Below, one piece after another: positions 1,152 through 14,619 of a DNA stretch of 64,000 bases (within the stretch, counting starts at the first letter, position 1; every line of letters starts with the position of its first letter). Below the pieces are notes generated by a model, which was given only the letters and a program-made list of their open reading frames with translations, did not search any database and was not told the origin of the DNA. Source of the DNA: Breoghania sp. L-A4 (lineage in GTDB: Bacteria > Pseudomonadota > Alphaproteobacteria > Rhizobiales > Stappiaceae); assembly GCF_003432385.1 (NCBI RefSeq), contig NZ_CP031841.1, positions 1,713,579 through 1,777,578 of the forward strand. Direction: 5' to 3'. Both the position numbers and the translations under genes were made by a program.

Positions 1152-2312
1152 CTAGCCGACCTTGCCGATTTCGGCGAGGAAGCTGTTCATCTCCTCGCGC
1201 AGGGTCTGCAGGCTGCGTTCCTGACGCGACAGCGCGCTGGCTGAGTCCAGGACGCGGGCGGAGACTTCACTGGTCTCGCTGGTGGCCATCTGCACGGACA
1301 TGATGCCGGAGCTGACGTTGCGGGTGCCCTTGGCGGCGACCTCCACATTCTGGGCGATTTCGCTGGTGGCCGCGCTCTGCTGCTCGACCGCCGAGGCGAT
1401 GGCCGCGGAGATGTCGCTCACCTGCTCGATGGTCGTGCTGATCTGCGCGTTGGCCTCCACGGCCTTGGTCGTGGCGCGCTGCAGACCCTCGACCTGGGCG
1501 GCAATATCCTCGGTCGCGGTGGCGGTCTGCCCCGCGAGGCTTTTCACCTCCTGCGCCACGATGGCGAAGCCCCGGCCCATCTCGCCCGCGCGCGCCGCCT
1601 CGATGGTGGCGTTGAGCGCCAGCAGGTTGGTCTGCGCCGCGATGGCGTTGATGAGATTGACCACCTCGCCGATCTTCTGGGAGGCGCCCGACAGGCTCTC
1701 GATGTCCTGGCTCATGTCGCGTGACTGCGCCACGGCCCCGGTGGCGATCTCCGCCGACTGGCGCACCTGCCGGTTGATCTCGCCGATCGAGCCGGTGAGT
1801 TCCTCGGTGGCGGAGGCGACGTTCTGCATGTTGGCGGATGCCTCTTCCGCGCCGGAAGCGACGATCAGCGACTGTTCGTTGGCGGTGTTCGACGCCTTGG
1901 TGACGCTGTCGGATGCCGACTGCAGGGTGACGACGGCGGTGGAGACGTTTTCCACGATGTCGCCCATCTGCGTCTCGAAGGTCTCGGCCATGTGGCGGAA
2001 GCCGTCTTGCTTGGTCTTGATGGAGAGCGTCGCCGTGTTGATGCTGCGCGCCGCATCGCCGAAGCTGCCGACCATGCCTTTTTCGGAGATCAGGCGGAAA
2101 TACTGGTTGCGGCTGACGTAGTCGAGACAGGCTTTCGACTCGCGCAGGTAGGCGTCGGTGCGGTCGATCATCAGGTTGATCGCGTGCATCAGCTCGCCCA
2201 TCTCCCCGGTTTCGCGGATGTCGATGATGCGTTTTTCGAAGTCGCCGGCAGCCACCGCGTTGCAGACGTCGATGGCTTTGCGGATCGCGGCTTTGTTGCT
2301 TCTGAACGCCAT
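1152..2312 (-). CDS. cytoplasmic methyl-accepting chemotaxis protein
   Basis: Chemoreceptor signalling protein of 386 residues. The highly conserved hairpin tip reads [20 protein letters not shown], followed by [20 protein letters not shown], which binds CheA and CheW. The N-terminal 110 residues look like a HAMP-type or poly-HAMP linker ([20 protein letters not shown]). There is no signal peptide and no membrane helix, so the receptor is soluble. ATG 2312 was preferred over the in-frame TTG at 2321, because the weak GAG motif upstream fits its spacing. The gene lies 85 bases downstream of a PAS-domain gene in the same direction, which probably supplies the sensory input. The C-terminus ends without an NWETF-type CheR tether. 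Confidence 0.93.
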
Positions 2313-2396
2313 GGTTTTCAACTCAGGTTTGGATGCCGGCGGAACCGGTCGTGTTCACAATATCGGGGCTACCGCGCCGGACGGCCGGTTGCGCCG

Positions 2397-2924
2397 TCAA
2401 GCGGCGAGGGTCGCGACGAATTCGTCGTAGGCCAAACCCTTTTCCGCCAGCAGGTCGGCGATGGCGCGTTCGGAGGCCGCCAGACCGTCCTTGCGGCTGG
2501 CGGGCGCGTCCTCGATCGCCTTCAACTGGCGGTACAGCGGAATGATCTGGCTCTCAAGAATCGCGCGATCGGGCACCCGGCGGTTCGAGTGATAGCTGAC
2601 GATGCGGCCCTGCGCGTCGAAACTGGGGGTTACATGCGCGTAAACCCAGTAGTGATCGCCGCCCTTGGTGCGGTTGACGACGTAGGCGTAAATCTCGTGT
2701 CCCGCCTGGACCGTATCCCACAGGGTCTTGAAGATGCAGCGCGGCATGTCGGGGTGCCGGATGATGCTGTGAGGCTCGCCCAGAACCTCGGCTTCCCTGA
2801 AGTCGGCGATCTTGAGAAAAACCTGATTGGCGTAGGTGATCCGGCCCTTGAGATCGGTCTTGCTGACGATGATGTCGTTGTCATCGAAGAATCGTTCAAC
2901 GCCTGTGAGAGGCACGTCGCGCAT
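2397..2924 (-). CDS. PAS-domain sensor protein, Aer-like
   Basis: Protein of 175 residues with one N-terminal PAS domain. It starts at ATG 2924 behind AGGTGA. The segment from DLKGRITYANQVFLKIADF to HPDMPRCIFKTLWDTVQAG, then WVYAHVTPSFD, follows the FAD-binding PAS domain of Aer aerotaxis receptors (the HPDMP and WV-x-ANV-x-P motifs). The last 50 residues are helical, with no methyl-accepting signalling hairpin and no membrane segment. The next gene downstream is a soluble chemoreceptor lacking a sensor domain. The two therefore look like an Aer-type receptor divided over two genes. Flavin or haem as cofactor is inferred from the family, not shown. Confidence 0.85.
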   Translation of the reverse strand: MRDVPLTGVERFFDDNDIIVSKTDLKGRITYANQVFLKIADFREAEVLGEPHSIIRHPDMPRCIFKTLWDTVQAGHEIYAYVVNRTKGGDHYWVYAHVTPSFDAQGRIVSYHSNRRVPDRAILESQIIPLYRQLKAIEDAPASRKDGLAASERAIADLLAEKGLAYDEFVATLAA

Positions 2925-3186: not shown

Positions 3187-3951
3187 TTACACGGCAAAAA
3201 GATCGCGGATCGGCGGCCACTGCGCGCCCGGGTGGGCGGCGGCGATGGCGAAGGTCTCCTCGAGAAAGCGGAAGCTGTCGTCTTCCATCGCCAGATGGTG
3301 GCTGAGGATGCCGATCGGCTCACTGGGTGCGTTGCGCCGCCGGGTCATCTGCAGGTCGAAACGCATGGCGGCCGCGGGCCAGCCGATGAAGCGGCGGCCC
3401 TTCTTCCACTTGATCATGTCGATATGGGTCTGCAGCCGGTGCGGGTCGGGCGCATGGAACCAGGTGAAGCTGGAAATTCCCTTCAACCCGATGGCCTGCG
3501 CGCCGCGGGCGATCTCCGGAGACAGTCTGTTCCAGGGCGGCACGAAGGCGGGAATGAAGGCCTCGCCGAACAGCGCTTCCAGTCGCGCCTTGCCGCGGCG
3601 CAACTCGTCGATCGCTTCCGCGGGGTTCCGGCGGGAGCCGAATTCGGCCGCCTTTTCCCCCAGATCCTTGCGCTGGTGGTTCTTGTGCCGCCAGCCGTGC
3701 AGCAGCACCTTGGCGTAAGGCTCCTCGCGCAACCGGTCGGCCAGTGCCTCGGTCGCCGGCTCCGGGATCACAGCGAGGCCGACTTCAACCTTGTATGTGT
3801 TGGCGATGGAGAGCAGCCGGTCGAGCGCCGGGGACGGCTCGATGGCGTCATCGTCGCGCCACCAGAAGCGCGCGGATTTGCCGCGCTCTGCGAACCAGTC
3901 GAGATGCGCGGTGAGGGCCGCGCGGAAGATGTGCAGCTCCCGTGTGCTCAT
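3187..3951 (-). CDS. polysaccharide deacetylase-fold protein
   Basis: Protein of 254 residues of the NodB-like/YdjC-like deacetylase superfamily. Visible motifs are WWRDDDAIEPS near residue 33 (metal and catalytic acids), LLHGWRHKNH (histidine pair) and FVPPWNRLSP (the third carbohydrate-esterase 4 motif). It probably removes an acetyl group from a sugar made by the glycosyltransferases encoded upstream. ATG 3949-3951 overlaps the upstream TGA by four bases (ATGA), so translation is coupled. This is the last gene of the glycan operon. No signal peptide is seen, which argues for action on a cytoplasmic, lipid-linked or nucleotide-linked intermediate. The precise substrate is unknown. Confidence 0.85.
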   Translation of the reverse strand: MSTRELHIFRAALTAHLDWFAERGKSARFWWRDDDAIEPSPALDRLLSIANTYKVEVGLAVIPEPATEALADRLREEPYAKVLLHGWRHKNHQRKDLGEKAAEFGSRRNPAEAIDELRRGKARLEALFGEAFIPAFVPPWNRLSPEIARGAQAIGLKGISSFTWFHAPDPHRLQTHIDMIKWKKGRRFIGWPAAAMRFDLQMTRRRNAPSEPIGILSHHLAMEDDSFRFLEETFAIAAAHPGAQWPPIRDLFAV

Positions 3952-5114
3952 CGGCTTTCCTCCCATGCGCGCAGCAGCAGCTCCGCGCTTGTCTCCGCGC
4001 CGCGCATCTGCGCTTCGTGCCCCACCCGCTCGCGTCCGCGCGGCAAGGCCATGGCCGCGTCGACAGCCTGCGCGAGCGCCTCGGGCGTCAGCGTCTTCTC
4101 GTCGGCGATGGTTGCCAGGCCGCGGCCCGCCAGCGCCTGGGCGCGGTGACTCTGCTCCGTTTCGAGCACTTGCGCGAAGGGGATGAACACGGCGGGGACT
4201 TCCGCCGCCAGCACGTCGAGCACCGTGTTGTAGCCGGCCTGGCTGACCGACAGCCGCGCGCGTTTGAGAAGGCCCGGGAAGTCCGGCCGCGCGCGTTCCG
4301 CGATCACGCCTTGGGGCAGCGTCGCGCGCAGGGCCGTGAAGCGCTCTTCGGGCACGTCATGACCGACAAGCAGCCGCCACGTGAGATCGTTCGCGGCGCG
4401 GCTGACGGCCCGCGCATGCACGGCCGTATCCAGCAGATGCGTGCCCACCGCGCCGCCGCCGCAGGACACGATCACCTCGTTGTCGCCCTCGCCGGACGGT
4501 GGCTCCGCGCGTGTTCCGGTGTGCACGAAGCCGGTGTATCGCAGCAGGTGCGCGACGCGGTCGGTGAAGGGAAAGCTGTCCTCCAGCCGCACATAGTCGG
4601 GATCGGAATGCACCAGCACCAGATCGTAGAAGCGGTTGGCGATCTCCGCCATTGTCTCTTCCTTGCGCGGATCGGGCTTGCGCACGAGGATGTCGCGGAT
4701 GGAGGAGGCGATCAGCGGCGGCGTGGCGCGGGCGCGCGCAGCCTGCAGCAACGGCAGCATCTCGAAGGCGAATTTGCGCCGGCCAAACGGATAGGTTTCG
4801 CTCAGCAGGATATCCGGGCGCACGTCATTGAATGCCTTCAGCAGCAAGTCGCGCCGATTGTCCCGCCAGGCGTCGTCGATGGGCGCGTCGGTCTCGTCGA
4901 GAAATTCCTTGAAATGGGCGTCGCGTGCGCGCACGGGCGGCAGGCAGACGACGTCGAGCCCGCGTGCGTCGAGCGTCGGCGGCACGGTGTTGCCGCAGAC
5001 CATCGTCACCGGGACGCCGAGATCCACCAGTGCCCGGCCGATGGCGGCGGCGCGCACCACGTGGCCGGTTCCGAGCAGATGCTGGACATGGATGAGCGCT
5101 GTGGGGGCTGTCAC
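3948..5114 (-). CDS. MurG-like (GT28-type) glycosyltransferase
   Basis: Protein of 388 residues with a GT-B fold like MurG. Residues 7-20 (LIHVQHLLGTGHVV) form the N-terminal nucleotide-fold loop with its glycine-rich turn and GH pair. The C-terminal half has VIVSCGGGAVG and LSVSQAGYNTVLDVLAAEVPAV, the sugar-nucleotide-binding region of GT28 enzymes. It starts at GTG 5114, overlapping the previous stop by four bases, and its own stop overlaps the next start by four bases. It probably transfers an N-acetylhexosamine-type sugar during envelope or exopolysaccharide synthesis. Donor and acceptor cannot be deduced. Confidence 0.88.
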   Translation of the reverse strand: MTAPTALIHVQHLLGTGHVVRAAAIGRALVDLGVPVTMVCGNTVPPTLDARGLDVVCLPPVRARDAHFKEFLDETDAPIDDAWRDNRRDLLLKAFNDVRPDILLSETYPFGRRKFAFEMLPLLQAARARATPPLIASSIRDILVRKPDPRKEETMAEIANRFYDLVLVHSDPDYVRLEDSFPFTDRVAHLLRYTGFVHTGTRAEPPSGEGDNEVIVSCGGGAVGTHLLDTAVHARAVSRAANDLTWRLLVGHDVPEERFTALRATLPQGVIAERARPDFPGLLKRARLSVSQAGYNTVLDVLAAEVPAVFIPFAQVLETEQSHRAQALAGRGLATIADEKTLTPEALAQAVDAAMALPRGRERVGHEAQMRGAETSAELLLRAWEESR

Positions 5115-6262
5115 GTGCGGGGGATCCGTTGGTTGCGGCGTGCGGCGTGTCTGGCGGCGGCGGATTGCAGGAAGGCGTCGAGTTGCGGCACGGCGGCGGC
5201 GATATCATGGCGGTCGCGCACATGGGCGCGCGCCGCCTGGCCCATGGCCTCGAGTGTATCCGCGCCGTTGATCGCCTGCCGCAAGGCGCGCGCGAAGGCG
5301 TCCGTGTCCTCGACCGGCACCAGCCAGCCGGTCTCGCCGTCGCGCATGATATCGGGCACGCCTCCGGTGCTGCCGGCGATCACCGGCAGGCCGGCAGCCT
5401 GGGCCTCGAGAAACACAAGGCCAAAGGCCTCGCGGATCGCCGGCCAGACAAACAGATCGGCCTGCGCATAGGGGCGCGGCATGTCTTCCGGCGCCAGCCG
5501 TCCGAGCCAGGTGATTCGGGATGCGGGAAAGAGCGCAAGAACCGCGTCGCGCATCGAGCCGTCGCCGACCAGCGTCAGATGCCAGTCGAGATCCGCCACC
5601 TGCGCGAGCGCCTCGGCCAGCAATCGGTGCGAGCGCATCTTGTCGCCCTCGCGCATCATCGCAACCGTGAGGAGCCGCACCGGCGCGCCGGCCGGGCGGG
5701 GCTGTTTGGGTTGAGCGAAGGGGCTGGCGTCGATAAACGGCGGCAGGATGCGCAGGGCGCCGGCCGGCACGATGGGCTCCAGCCCTTCCGCATCCGCGGC
5801 GTGCATGGCGGCGACGGCATCAGCGCGGACGAGTGCCGCGTCGGCCGCGGCGAAACCGTGTTGCCACGGTCCGCTCTTGCGTTTCATCGCGCGGCTCGCC
5901 TCGATCACCGCAAAGGGGATGTCGAGCGCGTCGGCGACGGCGGGACCGACCCAGTCCGGCGCCTTGTGATACAGATGATAGGTCAGCCAGGCATCCGGGC
6001 ACGGGGCCGTGCCGCTTTGAAACGCCTCGACCAGCCGGTCCGCTTCCGCAAGTGCGGCGCGTTCGAGATCCTGTTGTCGTTCGATGCCGCCATCCCGGCA
6101 CCAGCTTCGGAAGCGGCTTGGCTGGACAACCGCGCGGCCGCCGCGTTCCAGCGCCTGCACGATCAGCCGGCCCACCTGGCGGTCGCCGGAGGGCACAGGG
6201 TCGTCAAGCGGCTTCATCGGCGCGTAGACCGCAACGGTCTCTATCCCCAAAACGCTGGTCAC
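5111..6262 (-). CDS. GT4 family glycosyltransferase
   Basis: Protein of 383 residues starting at GTG 6262, overlapping the upstream stop by four bases. The C-terminal half is typical GT4 (GT-B, retaining). It has RLLTVAMMREGDK, VGDGSMRD, ITWLGRLAPEDMPRPYAQAD, then WPAIREAFGLVFLEAQAAGL, whose E-x7-E pattern binds the nucleotide sugar, followed by GGVPDIM-x-DGETGWLV. The N-terminal part holds a transferase acceptor domain (MKPLDDPVPSGDRQVGRL). It acts in the cytoplasm or at the inner membrane face, building a glycan with the other three transferases of this operon. Confidence 0.9.
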   Translation of the reverse strand: MTSVLGIETVAVYAPMKPLDDPVPSGDRQVGRLIVQALERGGRAVVQPSRFRSWCRDGGIERQQDLERAALAEADRLVEAFQSGTAPCPDAWLTYHLYHKAPDWVGPAVADALDIPFAVIEASRAMKRKSGPWQHGFAAADAALVRADAVAAMHAADAEGLEPIVPAGALRILPPFIDASPFAQPKQPRPAGAPVRLLTVAMMREGDKMRSHRLLAEALAQVADLDWHLTLVGDGSMRDAVLALFPASRITWLGRLAPEDMPRPYAQADLFVWPAIREAFGLVFLEAQAAGLPVIAGSTGGVPDIMRDGETGWLVPVEDTDAFARALRQAINGADTLEAMGQAARAHVRDRHDIAAAVPQLDAFLQSAAARHAARRNQRIPRT

Positions 6263-7494
6263 GCGGCGGCGGTCTCCACAAGCGGACGAAAGCGCTCGGC
6301 CAGACGGGCTATGCCGGGCTGGGAGGAGAATTTCGCGCGCACGTGTTCGGCGGCGCGGGTGCCCAGACGGGCGCGCAGGGCGGGATCCTCGATCAGCCGG
6401 GCGAGCGCCTGCGCCAGTTCCGAAGAATCGTCCGGGGCGACCAGCACGCCGGTCTCCCCGTCGTCGATCAGCTCCGGGATCGCCGAGACACGGGTCGACA
6501 GACAGGCGAGCCCCATGGTCTGGGCTTCCATCAGCACGTTGGGCAGCCCGTCGCGGTCGCCCGAGGCGGCGATGGTGCAGGGAAGCACGAAGAGATCGGC
6601 GTCCGCGTAGGCTTCAATCACCGTGTCGCGGGCCAGCGCGCCGCGCCAGTCGATGCGGCTCGACAGTCCAAGCGCGTCGGCCTGCCGCTTCAGCGCGTCC
6701 AGCAGCTCGCCGCCGCCGATGTGGCTGAACCGCCAGTTGAGCGCGGGTGGCAGGGCGGCCAGCGCCTCGAGCAGGACGCCATAGCCTTTTTTCTCCACGG
6801 CGCGGCCGACGGAGACGATGCGCACCGGATCCGCTGTTCCATCGCGCGGCGGACGCTGCGCGGGCGCGGGAGGAAACCGCGTCATGTCGAGGCCGTGGTA
6901 GACAAGCTCGACCTTGTCGGGGCGGTCGGCGAGCCCGTTGAGGTATTCGGCGTTGAGCCGGGTGCAGGTGACCCCCCAGGCGGCGTCGGCGAGCTTGTCG
7001 CGCAACTCCCATTCCTCGGATGTCCAGATGTCCTTGGCGTGCGCCGAGAACGACCACTGCATGCCGCGGATGAGTGCCGCGTAGCGTGTGACCGACGCCG
7101 GCGTGTGCAGGTAGTGGGTGTGCAGCCAGGTGATGTCTGAGGGCAGTTCGTGCGCCATCACGCAGGCCTGTCCCCAGCGGCGGTGGCGGCCATCGGAGGC
7201 ATCGCGGGCAAGATCGGCTTCAAACGCCGCGCGCGCCGCGGCGTGGCCAGGTTGTGCCCCGGCCCAGCGTTCGGCTGCGGCGACGCGCGCGGGATCGTCC
7301 TCGAGGTATTCCGGCAGATAGAGCACCTCGGCCTGGATCTCGCGGTGCATGTCGTGCACGTGCGGATCGGTCGGATGGCGCAGGGAGACGATCAGCTGCT
7401 CGACGCCGAGGCGTTCCAGGCCCAGGATTTCCTGGGCGATGAAGGTTTCCGAAAGGCGCGGATAGCCTTTGACGACGACGGCGACGCGGGACAT
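6259..7494 (-). CDS. GT4 family glycosyltransferase
   Basis: Protein of 411 residues. ATG 7494 is chosen because the conserved start MSRVAVVVKGYPRLSETFI is typical of colanic-acid-type transferases (VxxxFPxLSETFI). An upstream in-frame extension lacks family similarity. C-terminal GT4 motifs are RIVSVGRAVEKKGYGVLLEA, SHIGGGELLDAL, WRGAL, then SGDRDGLPNVLMEAQTMGL with the conserved glutamate, and IPELIDDGETGVLV. The similarity to WcaL/AmsK-like enzymes suggests extracellular or capsular polysaccharide assembly. The gene overlaps the next by four bases and lies 93 bases downstream of the first operon gene. Confidence 0.9.
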   Translation of the reverse strand: MSRVAVVVKGYPRLSETFIAQEILGLERLGVEQLIVSLRHPTDPHVHDMHREIQAEVLYLPEYLEDDPARVAAAERWAGAQPGHAAARAAFEADLARDASDGRHRRWGQACVMAHELPSDITWLHTHYLHTPASVTRYAALIRGMQWSFSAHAKDIWTSEEWELRDKLADAAWGVTCTRLNAEYLNGLADRPDKVELVYHGLDMTRFPPAPAQRPPRDGTADPVRIVSVGRAVEKKGYGVLLEALAALPPALNWRFSHIGGGELLDALKRQADALGLSSRIDWRGALARDTVIEAYADADLFVLPCTIAASGDRDGLPNVLMEAQTMGLACLSTRVSAIPELIDDGETGVLVAPDDSSELAQALARLIEDPALRARLGTRAAEHVRAKFSSQPGIARLAERFRPLVETAAA

Positions 7495-7587
7495 GGGCGG
7501 CTCTTGGTTCGGTGATTGGCTGTCAAGCGGCGCGCCTGGCGGTCGCCCCGCGCACATCAGCCGCCGGCCGGTCCGGTCAAGGCCCGT

Positions 7588-8859
7588 TCAGGGGCCGGAA
7601 TAGACCGGCGCGGACACGGCGCTTTCGGGTTCGTGCAGGACGCGCTCTCCAGACAGGATCGTCTCGACCCGGGCATTGATGTTGTCGAGCCCGTCGAGCA
7701 GTCCCGCGTAGCCGGCCGTCGCGGGCGGCGCGGAGTACGGCAGCTCGGCCAGCGCACGCGACATCTGCGACACGTCGGGATAATCGTCGATCGGCAGCAC
7801 GCGCACCAGACCGCAGGCCTCGGCCCGCTTGGCGCGGATGGCCTGTTCGCGGCGCGGCACGATACGCGGCACCAGCAACGTCGGCTTGTCGAAGGACAGG
7901 ATCTCGCAGAATGTGTTGTAACCGCCCATTCCGACGATCGCCGTCGCCTGATCGAGGAACGGCTCCATGTGCGGTGTGAATCGGATGATGTGCACATTGT
8001 CCATCTTGTCGGCACGGGCGATGAAGTTCGCTTGCGCCTCGGCGGGCATGAACGGACCCAGGATCACCAGCGCGGGCAGAAGCGTGTCCTGACGCGCCTC
8101 GTAGCTGCGCAGCACCCAGTCGACCAGTTCCACCCCGTCGCCGCCGCCGCCCGGCGTGACCAGGATATGCGGCTGGTCCATGAACGGGAACGGCTCGAGA
8201 ATGCTCGGCGTGCGTGGCAGCGAGCGCTTGAGGTAGCCAGTGTAAAGCGCCTTGTCGTGCACCGATTGCGGCAGCCCGAGGCCGGCGAGCGAATCGTGGA
8301 TGCCGGGTAGGCCGTAGACCCACAATTCGTCGTACAGCTCCTCAAGCGCGGGAAACACGTTCTTGCGTTCCCATTCCTCACGCAGGATGTCCGGATCGTC
8401 CATCACGTCGCGCAGACCCAGCACCAGCCGCGTGTTGGTCTGCTTGAGCTGCTGCAGGGTGGCGTGCACCTCGCCGCGCAGGCCCAGCGGTTCCTTGTCG
8501 ACAATGAAGATATCAGGGCGGTAGATCTTGGCGGTGTGCTCGATGATCGAGGAGCGGATCGCCAGTGTCTGCTCGATGTCGATATGCAGCCCCAGCGATG
8601 TGTATTCGCCGTTGCGCAGCTTGATGACGCCGGGAATGCGCACGAAATCCACGCGGCTGCGGAAATCGAAGCTGCCGATGATCGGCGAGCCCGACAGGAT
8701 CAGAACCGACAGGTTGCTGAACTCGTTGACGAGCGAATGGGCGATTGCGCGGCAGCGGCGCAAGTGCCCCAATCCGAAGGAGTCGTGGCTGTAGATAAGG
8801 ATTTTCGGCTTTTCAGTTCGCATCGTGCCCGTCTTGCCCGTATTGGAATTCACAGGCAT
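7588..8859 (-). CDS. MurG-like glycosyltransferase, first gene of glycan operon
   Basis: Protein of 423 residues. The N-terminus (KILIYSHDSFGLGHLRRCRA) is a GT28/MurG-like Rossmann loop, and ILVTPGGGGDG with AIVGMGGYNTFCEILSFDKP forms the nucleotide-sugar site. ATG 8859 is preferred because GGGAG lies about ten bases upstream (plus strand 8870-8874). The conserved region itself begins only at the ATG at 8823, so the true start may be there. The two MurG-like enzymes of this operon share the layout and may have arisen by duplication. It is transcribed away from the ABC/cyclic-nucleotide operon that starts 226 bases away. The family often appears annotated only as glycosyltransferase, and no specific reaction is known to me. 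Confidence 0.88.
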   Translation of the reverse strand: MPVNSNTGKTGTMRTEKPKILIYSHDSFGLGHLRRCRAIAHSLVNEFSNLSVLILSGSPIIGSFDFRSRVDFVRIPGVIKLRNGEYTSLGLHIDIEQTLAIRSSIIEHTAKIYRPDIFIVDKEPLGLRGEVHATLQQLKQTNTRLVLGLRDVMDDPDILREEWERKNVFPALEELYDELWVYGLPGIHDSLAGLGLPQSVHDKALYTGYLKRSLPRTPSILEPFPFMDQPHILVTPGGGGDGVELVDWVLRSYEARQDTLLPALVILGPFMPAEAQANFIARADKMDNVHIIRFTPHMEPFLDQATAIVGMGGYNTFCEILSFDKPTLLVPRIVPRREQAIRAKRAEACGLVRVLPIDDYPDVSQMSRALAELPYSAPPATAGYAGLLDGLDNINARVETILSGERVLHEPESAVSAPVYSGP

Positions 8860-9084
8860 TCGGACGGATCTCCCGAATTCGATTGCCGTGCAAATGGGTG
8901 ATTGCTCCCGCACCATGCATTGCATGCCGGAATTACTCAATATCGTTTTGGCACCACCATGTGAGCAAATTTGTCCCGGCCTCTATGAAAATCCGGCGGA
9001 TCGGCGATAGTGTGTGTCCAATCCTGGCTGATTTCAGGTTTCAAGTATTGACGATCATGTGACAATTCGCTTGGGCGCCTTTGA

Positions 9085-11699
9085 ATGGAATCGACCCTCT
9101 TTCGCTTCATCTGGAAATACAGCGCCCGGCAGCAGCTCTATATCGTTTTGATAACGGTGCTGTCGTTTCCCGCGCTGTACACCATGCTGGAAGTGCCCAA
9201 GCTGATCGTCAACGATGCGATTCAGGGCGGGCCCGGCCCCCGCACGTTCTTCGGCATCGAGTTCGCTCAGGTTCCCTATCTGATGGCCTTGTGCCTCGGC
9301 TTCCTGTCGTTGGTGGTGATCAACAACGCGGTCAAATACGTTCTCAACGTCTACAAGGGCCAGACCGGCGAGCGCATGCTGCGCCGCTTGCGCTTTGACT
9401 TGTTCCAACGTGTGCTGCGCTTCCGGCTGCCGCAGTTCCGCCGTGTCTCATCGAGCGAGATCATTCCGATGATCACGGCCGAGGTCGAGGATCTCGGCGG
9501 CTTCATTGGCGATGCGGTGGCGGTTCCGGCGTATCAGGGCGGCACCTTGATCGTCTACATCACGTTCATTTTCGCGCAGGACCCGCTGCTCGGCGCGGCC
9601 GCCATCTCGCTGTATCCGGTGCAGGCCTACATCATTCCGAAGCTGCAGAAGCGCGTGATCCAGCTGTCGCGGATGCGGGTGCGCAATGTGCGCGCCGTGG
9701 CCGACAAGATCGGCGAGAGCATCAACGGGGCGACGGAGATCCACGCCAACGACACGTCGGTTCTGCATATGGCGGAAGTGTCGGCGCGGCTGCACACCAA
9801 CTACGACATCCGCTACGCGATCTTCAAACGCAAATACATGATCAAGTTCGTGAACAATTTCATGAACCAGCTCACGCCCTTCTTCTTTTACTCCATCGGC
9901 GGATATCTGGTGATTCGCGGCCAGATCAGCTTCGGCGCGCTGGTGGCCGTGCTCGCCGCCTACAAGGACCTGGCGGGACCCTGGAAGGAACTGCTGGCCT
10001 ACTACCAGATCCTCGCGGACGTGAACGTCAAGTATCAGGCTGTGATCGAGAATTTCGATCCGCCCGATCTCTACAAGGTGGAACGGCTGACGGCCGACGA
10101 GGTGCTGGCGCTACAGGGCGATCTGTCGTTTTCCAGCGTCACGTTTTCCGGCGGCGCGGCGGGCCAGGAGGTCAACGGGGTCTCGTTCAAGGTGCCGCAG
10201 GGAACGGCTGTGGCCATCGTCGGAGAGGACGGCTCGGGCCGCTCGGAAACCCTGCAGCTTGCCGCGGGAATTCTGAGTCCGGCCTCGGGACGGGTGGAGA
10301 TCGGCAAGAGCAACCTGGAGGATCTGGGCGAGGCGACGCTCGGGCGGCTCATCTCCTATGTCAACGCCGCGCCGCATATCTTCAGCGGCACCATCCGCGA
10401 CAATCTGTTCTACGGTCTGCGTCACCGGCCGCGCGGGATGTCGAGGCGACGGGCGCGGAGGCCGAGTACAAGCGCCGCGAAGCGCTGCAGACGGCCAATT
10501 CGCCCTTCGATCCGGAACTGCCCTGGGAGGATCTTGTGGCGGCCGGCGTGAACAGCCCGGCGGCGCTGGACGAGCGCGCGCTGTCCATCGTCGACGCCGT
10601 GGGGCTCGGAGACGACGTCTACCGCATGGGCCTGCAGGCGCGGCTGGATCCCGACGTTCATCCTGGCGTGGCCGAGCATATTCTGAAGGTGCGCAAGGCG
10701 ATCGCCGAGCGCGTGTCGTCCGACACGAAACTGCAGCATGTGGTCGAACTGTGGAACATCGAGACGTTCAACCAGTCCGCGACCCTGGGCGAGAACCTGC
10801 TTTACGGCGTGCCGGCGGATATGGACATGACGATCGAGAAGATCGCCGCCAATCCCCGGCTTGTCGCCTTTCTGAAGCGGCAGAGCCTGTACGACCGCTT
10901 CGTGGCGATCGGCATCAAGATCGCGGATACGATGATCGAATTGTTCGCCAGCGTCAGCGCCGACTCGGTGCTGCTGGGCGCCTACTCCTTCATCACGCCG
11001 GATGAATTGCCGGAGTTCGAGAAGATTCTTCGAAAGACGCGCGCAGCCGGTGCGAGCGCGCTCTCCGAAGCGCAATGCGGGCGGCTGATCGGCCTGGCTT
11101 TCAAGCTGGTGCCCTCCCGCCACCGTCTCGGCGTTGTCGATGACGCACTGGCCGCCGACATCGTGACCGCGCGCAAGCGTTTCCACGAGGAGATCATGGC
11201 CACGTCGAAGCGTTACGTCATTCTGGATATCGACCGTTACATCGGCCCGCTGACCATCGAGGAGAACCTGTTGTTCGGCCGGCCGCGGGTCGACCGGCGC
11301 GACAGCCGCGAGCGCATCGACCAGCTTATCGGTGCGATGGTCGACGAACTGGATCTGCGCGAGCCGATTCTCAGCGCCGGCCTGGATTTCCATGTCGGGG
11401 TCGCGGGCTCGCGCCTGACAGGCGGCCAGCGGCGCAAGATCGCGTTGGCGCGCGGGATCATGAAACGCCCGGAGATGATGATTCTCGACGATATCGCCGC
11501 CGGGCCCGGAGCGGAAGACGCGCGGTTGCGCGCGATGATTCGCCGTGAACTGGTCGGCAAGACAGTGCTGTTCGGGATCTCCGATCAGCAGGTCGCAGCC
11601 GAATTCGACATGGTCCTTAGAATGACCGGTGGCAGTCTTGCCCGGAGTCAGGTGACAAATGGTGAGCGGCCGGTTGAGATGTCGGCGGGCGAGGCGTGA
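9085..11699 (+). CDS. ABC exporter-like protein with degenerate, expanded ATPase domain (one-base frameshift)
   Basis: Reads as two frames joined between about 10421 and 10438. One added base gives 871 residues. Residues 1-320 are an exporter-type membrane domain (several hydrophobic helices, intracellular loops with NVRAVADKIGESINGATEIH). The nucleotide-binding domain is odd. The Walker A region reads GEDGSGRSE at about residue 380, with Arg for Lys. The Q-loop has Ala for Gln (VNAAPHIFSGTIRDN). The signature LTGGQRRKIALARG comes only at about residue 778. Walker B ends LDD instead of LDE, and the switch histidine is replaced (LFGISDQQ). About 390 residues separate Walker A from the signature, where about 100 is normal, and the segment TIRDNLFYGL recurs as TLGENLLYGV and TIEENLLFGR. 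It lies upstream of cNMP-binding and cyclase genes. It may be a non-hydrolysing transporter-like protein. Confidence 0.82.
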
Positions 11700-11820: not shown

Positions 11821-12288
11821 ATGTCGTTGGAAACTGAAGTGGATGCCCTGCGCAAGGTGCCGCTTTTTCGCGGAATCGACGCCGGAAAATTGCGTCTGCT
11901 GGCCTTTATCAGCGACCGGACGCAGTTCCACGAGGGTGAGCATTTGTGCGAGCAGGGCGATACGGGCGACAGTGCCTATATCATTCTGCAAGGCTCCGCC
12001 GATGTCGTCGTGGCGACGGATCGCGGAGAGCGAACGGTCGCCACCATCGGGGCCAATGATATTGTCGGGGAGATCGCCATTCTCTGCGACGTACCGCGCA
12101 CGGCCACGCTTGTGGCGAAAACGGATCTGGATGTGCTGACGGTGTCCAAGGAAAACTTCCTCAAGCTTCTCGAGGAGTTCCCGGAAATGGCGCTGGAGGT
12201 GATGCGGGTGCTGGCCCAGCGGCTGGAAAAGACAACACGCGACTTGGCGATTTCCAAGGCGCAAGCAACCGGGCCGGCGACCGGCTGA
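11821..12288 (+). CDS. stand-alone cyclic-nucleotide-binding protein
   Basis: Protein of 155 residues made almost entirely of one cNMP-binding domain. The phosphate-binding cassette reads VGEIAILCDVPRTATLVAKT and keeps the Glu and Arg that hold the ribose and cyclic phosphate. The preceding GDTGDSAYIILQG is the conserved beta-barrel strand. There is no DNA-binding helix-turn-helix, kinase or channel part, so it is not a Crp-type transcription factor. It probably acts as a free cAMP or cGMP-responsive subunit on a partner, plausibly the ABC protein encoded 120 bases upstream or the hydrolase downstream. ATG 11821 follows an AGGGAG-type site. Confidence 0.9.
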   Translation: MSLETEVDALRKVPLFRGIDAGKLRLLAFISDRTQFHEGEHLCEQGDTGDSAYIILQGSADVVVATDRGERTVATIGANDIVGEIAILCDVPRTATLVAKTDLDVLTVSKENFLKLLEEFPEMALEVMRVLAQRLEKTTRDLAISKAQATGPATG

Positions 12289-12301: not shown

Positions 12302-13126
12302 GTGACGCGTGACTTTTCGGTGCGATTTTGGGGGGTTCGCGGTTCCACGCCAACCCCGGGCGAGGATACGTTGCGCTACGGCGGCGAAACAACGGCGCTT
12401 GAGATTCGTGCGGGCGAGAGGCTCATCCTTATTGACTGCGGATCCGGCGCGCGCCGCTTCGGTCAGCAGCTCATGGCGGAGAGTCTGCGCTCCTTCGATC
12501 TGCTCTTCACCCACACACATCTTGATCACATATGCGGGCTGCCGTTCTTTTCGCCCGCCTATGACAAGAACTTCCAGATCCGCTGCTGGGCGGGGCATTT
12601 TCCAGAACCCTCGGGCCTGCAAAACGTCATTTCCCGCATCATGTCGCCGCCGATTTTCCCGGTCGCGGCCGACACGCTGAACGCCGTGACCTTCAAAGAG
12701 TTCAAGGCCGGCGGTGCTCTGGCGCTCGGTGACGATGTGAGCGTCCGCTCCATCAAGCTGAACCATCCCGGAGGCGCCTGCGGCTACCGCGTCGACTTCG
12801 AGGGACGGGCGCTTGCGGTGATCACGGATCACGAGCACGGCGATGCGGCGATCGATGCCGCGATCGCCGCGTTCGTGCAGGGTGTCGATGTCATGGTCTA
12901 CGACAGCATGTACACCGACGAGGAACTGCCGCGGTACATTGGCTGGGGGCATTCCACCTGGCAGGAGGCGACGCGGCTGGCCCGGCGCGCCGATGTCGCG
13001 CGGCCGGTGCTGTTTCACCACGATCCGTGCCGGACCGATGACCAACTGGATGTGATTGGGGCCGCGGCGCGGGGCGAGCATGCGGGCGCGCTGGTGGCGC
13101 GCCAGGGCATGGTGCTGACCCTGTAG
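12302..13126 (+). CDS. metallo-beta-lactamase-fold hydrolase, possible cyclic nucleotide phosphodiesterase
   Basis: Protein of 274 residues starting at GTG 12302, 13 bases after the cNMP-binding gene. The N-terminus VRFWGVRGSTPTPG is the typical opening of the PhnP/class II phosphodiesterase-like branch. Metal ligands are visible in FTHTHLDHICGLPFF (HxHxDH), LNHPGGACGYRV, AVITDHEH and LFHHDP. This branch includes cyclic-nucleotide and cyclic-phosphate phosphodiesterases. Placed between a cNMP-binding protein and a nucleotide cyclase, a role in degrading the messenger is attractive but is inference from context. No membrane segment is seen. Confidence 0.87.
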   Translation: MTRDFSVRFWGVRGSTPTPGEDTLRYGGETTALEIRAGERLILIDCGSGARRFGQQLMAESLRSFDLLFTHTHLDHICGLPFFSPAYDKNFQIRCWAGHFPEPSGLQNVISRIMSPPIFPVAADTLNAVTFKEFKAGGALALGDDVSVRSIKLNHPGGACGYRVDFEGRALAVITDHEHGDAAIDAAIAAFVQGVDVMVYDSMYTDEELPRYIGWGHSTWQEATRLARRADVARPVLFHHDPCRTDDQLDVIGAAARGEHAGALVARQGMVLTL

Positions 13127-13272: not shown

Positions 13273-14619
13273 ATGGCGCGATTCAAGCAGCTCTGGCAGC
13301 CGTCGCCCAGCCGGATGGTGGTGCCCGTGCGCATCCGTGATGAGATTCACCGCCGTGACGCGGCCGCCGAACGGCTCATCGGCTGGGTCCAGCTTGGGGT
13401 GGTGCTGTTCTTCGCGCTGCTTTATTCGCTGGCGCCGCGCGCCGAGGGCACGCAGGGGTTCAATTTCGTTCCCTTCGCCCTGAGCACCTATTTCCTGTTT
13501 ACGATCATACGCTTGTACATCTCCTACCAGCGGGAATTGCCCGACTGGTATCTGATGATCTCGATCGTCGTCGACGTCTGCCTGCTTGTCGGCATCATTT
13601 TCTCGTTTCACATCCAGTACGGGCAGCATCCGACCTTCTACCTGAAGGCGCCGACGCTGATGTATGTGTTCCTGTTCATCTCCCTGCGCGCGCTCCGGCT
13701 TGATCCAAGCTTCGTGCTGACCACGGGGCTCGTTGCCGCCGCCGGCTGGTTCGGCCTCGTCGCCTATGCCGTGATCGCCGACATGGACGGCATGCATGTG
13801 ACCCGCAACTATGTGGAGTATCTGACCTCCAATTCGATCCTCATCGGCGCCGAGCTCGACAAGCTGATCATCATTCTGGCGGTGACGGGTATTCTCTCCG
13901 TCAGCCTGTACCGGGCGCGCACGATCTTTTTCGAGGCGATCCGCGACCATGTCGCGGCGGAGGATCTGAAACGGTTCTTCGCGCCGGAAGTGGCGCAGTC
14001 GATAACCGGCGCCGATGTGGCGCTCGAAGCCGGGCAGGGGGTGTCGCGCACCGCCGCCGTCATGGTCGTCGACATCCGCTCGTTCACGACGGCGGCCGAG
14101 AGCCTGCCGCCGGAAACCGTCATGCGCGTGCTCTCGCGCTACCAGGAATGCGTGGTGCCGATCATCCAGCGCAACAACGGCCGCATCGACAAGTTCCTCG
14201 GCGACGGCATTCTGGCGACCTTCGGCGCGGTGCAGGCCTCCGAGACCTACGCCGCCGACGCGGTCGCCGCGATGCGGGACATTTCCGAGCGGATGCGTGC
14301 CGTCGCCGCCGAGTTCGTCGACGAGGGATGGCCGGAGCCGCTGCGCGTTGGCGTCGCCGCCGCCTGCGGTCCGGTCACCGTGGGTGTCATCGGCACCGCG
14401 AGTCGGCTGGAATACACGGTGATCGGGTCGCCGGTGAACCTCGCCGCAAAGCTCGAGGACGCCAACAAGGCGCTGCGCACATCGGCGATCCTCACCGCCG
14501 ACTGTCTGCGGATTGCCCGCAGTCAGGGCAGTCTGGTCGGTGATGTGGAGATGCGCCCCGGCGTGACGGTCGCCGGTATCGCGCAGCCGCTGGACATCGC
14601 GGTGCTCGCCCGGTCTTGA
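13273..14619 (+). CDS. membrane-bound class III adenylate/guanylate cyclase
   Basis: Protein of 448 residues. About six hydrophobic helices occupy residues 35-230, followed by a linker (DHVAAEDLKRFFAPEVAQSI) common to CyaA-like bacterial cyclases. The catalytic domain has both metal aspartates: VVDIRSFTTAAESLP and IDKFLGDGILATFGA. It also has the substrate region LEYTVIGSPVNLAAKLED. Lys in IDKFLGDG and Thr in EYTVIG favour ATP over GTP. The enzyme makes cyclic AMP at the inner membrane. It is the last gene of a set with a cNMP-binding protein and a candidate phosphodiesterase, so synthesis, sensing and breakdown may be co-encoded. ATG 13273 follows a GAAAGAAGG site. Confidence 0.93.
   Translation: MARFKQLWQPSPSRMVVPVRIRDEIHRRDAAAERLIGWVQLGVVLFFALLYSLAPRAEGTQGFNFVPFALSTYFLFTIIRLYISYQRELPDWYLMISIVVDVCLLVGIIFSFHIQYGQHPTFYLKAPTLMYVFLFISLRALRLDPSFVLTTGLVAAAGWFGLVAYAVIADMDGMHVTRNYVEYLTSNSILIGAELDKLIIILAVTGILSVSLYRARTIFFEAIRDHVAAEDLKRFFAPEVAQSITGADVALEAGQGVSRTAAVMVVDIRSFTTAAESLPPETVMRVLSRYQECVVPIIQRNNGRIDKFLGDGILATFGAVQASETYAADAVAAMRDISERMRAVAAEFVDEGWPEPLRVGVAAACGPVTVGVIGTASRLEYTVIGSPVNLAAKLEDANKALRTSAILTADCLRIARSQGSLVGDVEMRPGVTVAGIAQPLDIAVLARS

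Follow-up and report, generated by a model that had tools for sequence, protein, structure and literature searches.

An exporter-fold protein family of Alphaproteobacteria with an eroded ATP site, a repeat-containing insertion and a cyclic-nucleotide-type partner

What might an ABC exporter do for its cell once the site that should power it has eroded? This question is raised by a locus of Breoghania sp. L-A4, which we analysed within a stretch of 64,000 nucleotides (hereafter the window). One protein is encoded there in two overlapping frames of the plus strand, 9085-10551 and 10440-11699, which are separated by one frameshift at about 10425-10440.

9085..10551, plus strand: first ORF piece, encoding a membrane domain of the exporter type (from residue 1 to about 344) and the beginning of the nucleotide-binding domain (NBD); Pfam ABC_membrane 1.6e-14, ABC_tran 2.3e-10; 62-72% identity to orthologues from the same taxonomic family or near it
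10425..10440, plus strand: frameshift zone; relatives have intact copies
10440..11699, plus strand: second ORF piece, with the rest of an insertion, the helical subdomain, the signature and the Walker B region; Pfam ABC_tran C-terminal part 5.3e-6

The family reading of the first piece stops near 10431, past which its frame is shifted, and orthologues are single ORFs of about 860-1130 aa. The protein begins directly with its transmembrane domain (TMD), which is of the exporter type according to Pfam and to whole-model Foldseek matches, all of them exporters; no Pfam peptidase match indicating a C39 peptidase was found in it or in its relative L166. As the window copy carries one frameshift, and a second copy (G001) is broken too, in an assembly with several split genes at the locus, the oddities described below might be artefacts of frameshifts or signs of a decaying gene. 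We give this explanation next to no chance: every feature recurs in well over 100 relatives with an intact single ORF, which rules it out for the family and also disposes of the refuting case foreseen in the original prediction, namely that more than one indel had created the oddity.

The motifs of the ATP site are altered throughout the NBD.

10222..10248, plus strand: degenerate Walker A, GEDGSGRSE, Lys replaced by Arg
11415..11429, plus strand: signature-like LTGGQ; family consensus LSAxQ
11478..11492, plus strand: degenerate Walker B, MILDD, Glu replaced by Asp

In addition, the Q-loop Gln is replaced by Asn (ISYVNAAPHIF) and the switch-His column holds Ser. The protein thus lacks the canonical combination of Walker A GxxGxGK[ST], Q-loop Gln, LSGGQ, Walker B Asp-Glu and switch His, and all ATP-site motifs are intact in three canonical exporters of the same genome. 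To see how far this extends, the Walker A Lys, Walker A Ser/Thr, Walker B Asp and Walker B Glu were scored as core residues in 118 distinct aligned members: none of them is retained in 27 members, one in 27, two in 57, three in six and all four in one, and a complete canonical motif set was found in none of the 118. The single member with all four (L157; Walker A K/S, Walker B D/E) has Asn at the Q-loop position, lacks the switch His and carries VSQTL replacing LSGGQ; this fused member possibly lies near the ancestral state. Among 93 members, the commonest pattern is that of the window protein (Arg, Ser/Thr, Asp, Asp; 23 members), followed by Lys with a non-Ser/Thr residue, Asn and Glu (13 members). 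Which catalytic residues are lost differs from branch to branch, as relaxed selection on hydrolysis would give. Judged by the alignment, the family has lost the ordinary ATP-hydrolysis site, although ATP could still be bound without being hydrolysed. The loss of the Walker A Lys, Q-loop Gln, Walker B Glu and switch His had been predicted from the window alone, and all four losses are real; the wider claim of a degenerate ATPase holds as well, given that close relatives with complete canonical motifs and no insertion, which would speak against it, were not found and that the insertion occurs in every aligned member.

This insertion is the second peculiarity of the protein.

10390..10416, plus strand: ENL motif 1, TIRDNLFYG, after the Q-loop with its replaced Gln; Asn in 114 of 118 members
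10417..11252, plus strand: family-specific insertion with the remainder of repeat 1 followed by repeat 2; belongs to no known Pfam family
10782..10808, plus strand: ENL motif 2, TLGENLLYG; Asn in 118 of 118
11253..11279, plus strand: ENL motif 3, TIEENLLFG; Asn in 118 of 118

Walker A and signature lie 396 residues apart in the window protein, compared to 104-109 in the three canonical exporters of its own genome and a usual spacing of about 100-110. About 280 residues are inserted family-wide between Q-loop and signature, and Pfam gave no consistent match to a known domain there. Profiles of the three repeat units match each other (u2-u3 E 3e-11, u1-u2 2.6e-6, u1-u3 1.4e-5), while control comparisons of the units with membrane-domain segments gave E-values of 0.2-0.5. 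Each unit ends in a helix with an invariant Arg (1.00, 1.00 and 0.99), which is followed by a strand, and this helix-strand pair is clearly shared by repeats 1 and 2 (E 4.8e-13). We also asked whether it equals the signature helix and Walker B strand of repeat 3, but the sequence match failed (E 0.23 and 0.13), so that this equivalence would rest on topology and the one invariant Arg. Of what had been read from the window sequence, the gap of about 390 residues, the three ENL-YG segments (kept across 118 relatives) and an internal duplication of part of the NBD were thus all borne out; the notion of three copies of an ABC core subfold stands as far as the ENL part and the helix-strand pair of repeats 1 and 2 are concerned, and lacks significant sequence similarity where repeat 3 would have to supply the third such pair. 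In a PDB sequence search with the insertion, the best E-value was about 0.26 and six of seven matches fell on CydC 411-475, which unit 2 weakly resembles (E 0.26). We take this segment to be the Q-loop-to-signature region of CydC.

An AlphaFold model of the NBD, built with 77 sequences (mean pLDDT 90.8), superposes on canonical NBDs with Z-scores of 24-26 (ComA: Z 25.8, rmsd 2.5, 214 residues aligned). The NBD is accordingly predicted to keep the ABC fold, with the insertion left over as extra mass. In the models, about three rounds of strand, ENL helix, helices, long helix and strand follow one another, repeat 2 having additional helices, and the insertion as a whole appears large and protein-interaction-like. 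The full-length model is weaker in its membrane part, and Foldseek searches with it returned generic exporters only.

Conservation is unevenly spread over the two halves: of 6903 pairs of family members, 6531 are more alike in the TMD than in the NBD, and 21 close relatives share on average 67% pairwise identity in the TMD versus 45-49% in the NBD parts. The order is opposite in 27 canonical exporters of the same genomes, where the NBD leads with 64% versus 47% mean pairwise identity and the TMD is ahead in only six of 351 pairs; since this set mixes orthologues with paralogues and the pairs are not independent, the exact figures are rough, but the sign of the difference is clear. At the sequence level, the membrane domain of the family is thus strongly conserved. 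These data also bear on the possibility that the protein is still an ATP-driven exporter with a rearranged site, in which residues of the repeats replace the lost ones. Part of the site is indeed kept in many members, the set of Lys, non-Ser/Thr, Asn and Glu being a common one, L157 retains K, S, D and E, and the signature Gln and the last Walker A Gly are conserved. We nevertheless consider such an exporter unlikely, because the branches differ in the catalytic residues they have lost, the Q-loop Gln is missing, often along with the switch residue, and conservation is lower in the NBD than in the TMD. Relatives without an NBD exist, too: proteins of 412-434 aa with the family membrane domain, from Roseobacter litoralis and Phaeobacter plasmids, are about 40% identical to the protein of the window (E 2e-83 and 8e-83). 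They carry an extra N-terminal segment and sit in copper-handling or copper-resistance clusters (L163:9773-11011 and L164:9773-11077); in the tree they fall within the family, close to L040, at support values that are weak to moderate (0.365 and 0.844). Their existence suggests that the family membrane domain can be useful without an NBD.

The family is widespread within its class. A first search found a close relative in all 25 genomes of the same taxonomic family, own genome included, with the G001 copy broken into two pieces. In this strain of the same genus (L168), the glycosyltransferase, ABC and cyclase genes of the locus all contain frameshifts, which looks like assembly error there. 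A genome-wide scan yielded at least 569 relatives, and a profile of the insertion only matched in 131 of 385 genomes of the class (118 of 315 good-quality ones), i.e. in roughly one third of the sampled alphaproteobacterial genomes. In a sample of the phylum it matched in 31 of 398 genomes, every one of them inside Alphaproteobacteria; a few metagenome bins labelled Gammaproteobacteria or Anaerolineae hold relatives, for which mis-binning is possible. Rhizobium, Sinorhizobium and Azospirillum carry the gene on large plasmids, where it is annotated, if at all, as 'ABC transporter ATP-binding protein' or similar. Neither the insertion nor the family is covered by a Pfam or NCBIfam model, and a literature search found no mention of the family, which is weak evidence of absence as most subscription papers were out of reach.

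Which genes accompany such a protein? In the window, its surroundings comprise a putative sensor, two enzymes that might handle the sensed signal and a divergent cluster.

3187..8940, minus strand: divergent cluster with two GT28-type and two GT4-type glycosyltransferases and a polysaccharide-deacetylase-like gene
11821..12288, plus strand: cNMP-binding-domain protein, 155 aa; Pfam PF00027 1.4e-22; phosphate-binding cassette GEIAILCDVPRTA
12302..13126, plus strand: MBL-fold hydrolase with HTHLDH metal motif, RNase Z-like or cyclic-nucleotide phosphodiesterase-like, under curated cut-offs
13273..14619, plus strand: class III adenylate/guanylate cyclase; both metal-Asp motifs present

In 106 of 125 loci, a cNMP-binding gene lies directly downstream of the ABC gene; in ten more (116 of 125 in total) the two are fused, with the cNMP domain at the C terminus of the protein, and several of the remaining nine loci gave a tblastn match at the same place. 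Fusions occur in at least two separate branches of the TMD tree (L114 with L157, and L166 with L141-L146). The neighbour in the window has both the domain and the cassette, the latter in the form commonest in the family; the cassette is canonical in most partners, but not in the fused f32-family members. L141-L146 come from one taxonomic family with up to three diverged copies, all with a fused cNMP domain and a non-canonical cassette. The link to the cNMP-binding neighbour drawn in the original prediction is thereby confirmed as an association. The genes for the MBL-fold hydrolase and the class III cyclase occur mainly in Stappiaceae-type loci; together with the cNMP gene, those of the window possibly form a complete set to make, sense and degrade a signal. 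An anti-phage system was considered and rejected, since the PADLOC matches reflect only generic cNMP-binding and ATPase domains.

With each of two glycosyltransferase queries, relatives were found close to the ABC gene in 103 of 125 loci; some loci have none in the flank examined, including all six f32-family loci. In Stappiaceae, the glycosyltransferases are transcribed divergently from the ABC gene. On Rhizobium etli p42e and Rhizobium johnstonii pRL11 (L161:643-15280 and L162), one strand carries, in this order, three glycosyltransferase genes, the ABC gene and the cNMP gene downstream of an Opp-type peptide importer, with a nucleotide cyclase gene upstream of the importer on p42e. Elsewhere in the window, a PAS-type ORF (2397-2924, minus strand) directly precedes a chemotaxis-type ORF of the methyl-accepting kind (1152-2321, minus strand); both are possibly one aerotaxis gene (1152-2924) split by a frameshift. 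In what we regard as the main rival explanation, the protein transports nothing and instead gathers the glycosyltransferases at the membrane as a scaffold or regulator responding to the cyclic-nucleotide sensor. The lost ATP site, the gene neighbourhood and the large, protein-interaction-like insertion would all suit such a role, but the exporter-type membrane domain is the most conserved part of the protein, beyond the needs of a mere anchor, and we therefore rate the scaffold as rather doubtful.

How does the family relate to known systems? With type I ABC exporters (MsbA, Sav1866, ComA/PCAT, CydDC, TmrAB) it shares the Pfam ABC_membrane domain, the canonical NBD fold (predicted here) and the domain order. 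It differs from them by its lost ATP-site motifs, the ENL-repeat insertion of about 280 residues, a TMD better conserved than the NBD and the constant cNMP partner. Gated or regulatory ABC proteins are known from sulfonylurea receptors (ABCC8/9) and CFTR, which retain one working site; they have no tandem helical-subdomain repeats and serve as an analogy of how the protein might work, with no membership claimed. Heterodimeric exporters with one degenerate site, such as TAP, TM287/288, TmrAB and BmrCD, are common and resemble the family in their replaced catalytic residues (PMC7756269). The protein could accordingly be the degenerate half of a heterodimer whose canonical partner is encoded elsewhere, and several canonical exporters are indeed present in the genomes. 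This appears improbable to us: a canonical exporter-like ORF was found in the flank examined in only one of 125 loci, whereby a partner next door is rejected, the cNMP protein is the sole constant partner gene, and degenerate halves normally retain much of their site and lack a 280-residue insertion, so that the loss in the family is the more extensive one. A neighbour annotated 'ABC transporter ATP-binding protein' in Rhizobium was likewise rejected as canonical partner, as it is the ATPase of the Opp-type importer. Without a canonical partner encoded nearby, both sites of a family homodimer would be degenerate. An ABC exporter is joined to a cNMP-type domain also in HetC, a cyanobacterial peptidase ABC exporter with a C39 peptidase, in which export is ATPase-dependent and the ATPase Glu essential (PMC10986499). 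Its N-terminal cNMP-type domain binds ppGpp, i.e. such domains need not bind cAMP or cGMP (PMC10986499). In contrast to HetC, the family has lost the ATP site, and its cNMP domain is a separate gene or lies C-terminally.

Taking together the eroded ATP site, the repeated block, the cNMP sensor alongside or fused and the nearby glycosyltransferase genes, the protein is probably no ordinary pump driven by ATP but a membrane device under the control of a signal. More specifically, we suggest, with even chances of being right, a pseudo-ATPase protein of exporter fold that is controlled by a cyclic nucleotide, works independently of hydrolysis and serves a surface-glycan pathway. The motor domain would have turned into a pseudo-NBD that grew by tandem copying of its helical subdomain; of these copies, the ENL repeats are seen in the sequences and the remainder is in part reconstructed. 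The adjacent or fused sensor would be dedicated to the ABC protein and act with it, presumably through physical contact. As a dimer, the protein would most likely form a translocator or gate for a lipid-linked or surface glycan made by the glycosyltransferases, with opening or assembly brought about by the sensor and not driven by ATP turnover. In the window, the neighbouring cyclase could produce the sensed signal, which the MBL-fold hydrolase could then remove. Only tentatively do we extend this to the whole class, as a family that gave up ATP hydrolysis and turned into a translocator or channel, gated by a cyclic nucleotide, for a glycan or a glycolipid; tandem duplication of the helical subdomain would have rebuilt the NBD into a gating module.

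The family occurs, usually in single copy, in the tractable Rhizobium etli, Rhizobium johnstonii 3841, Sinorhizobium and Azospirillum, and is thus directly testable. If our proposal is true, a large exporter family annotated 'ABC transporter ATP-binding protein' would not be driven by ATP in the usual way and would provide a bacterial system for asking what the ABC fold does without hydrolysis. It could also serve to study the action of cyclic nucleotides outside transcription in Alphaproteobacteria and the control of a conserved glycosyltransferase pathway.
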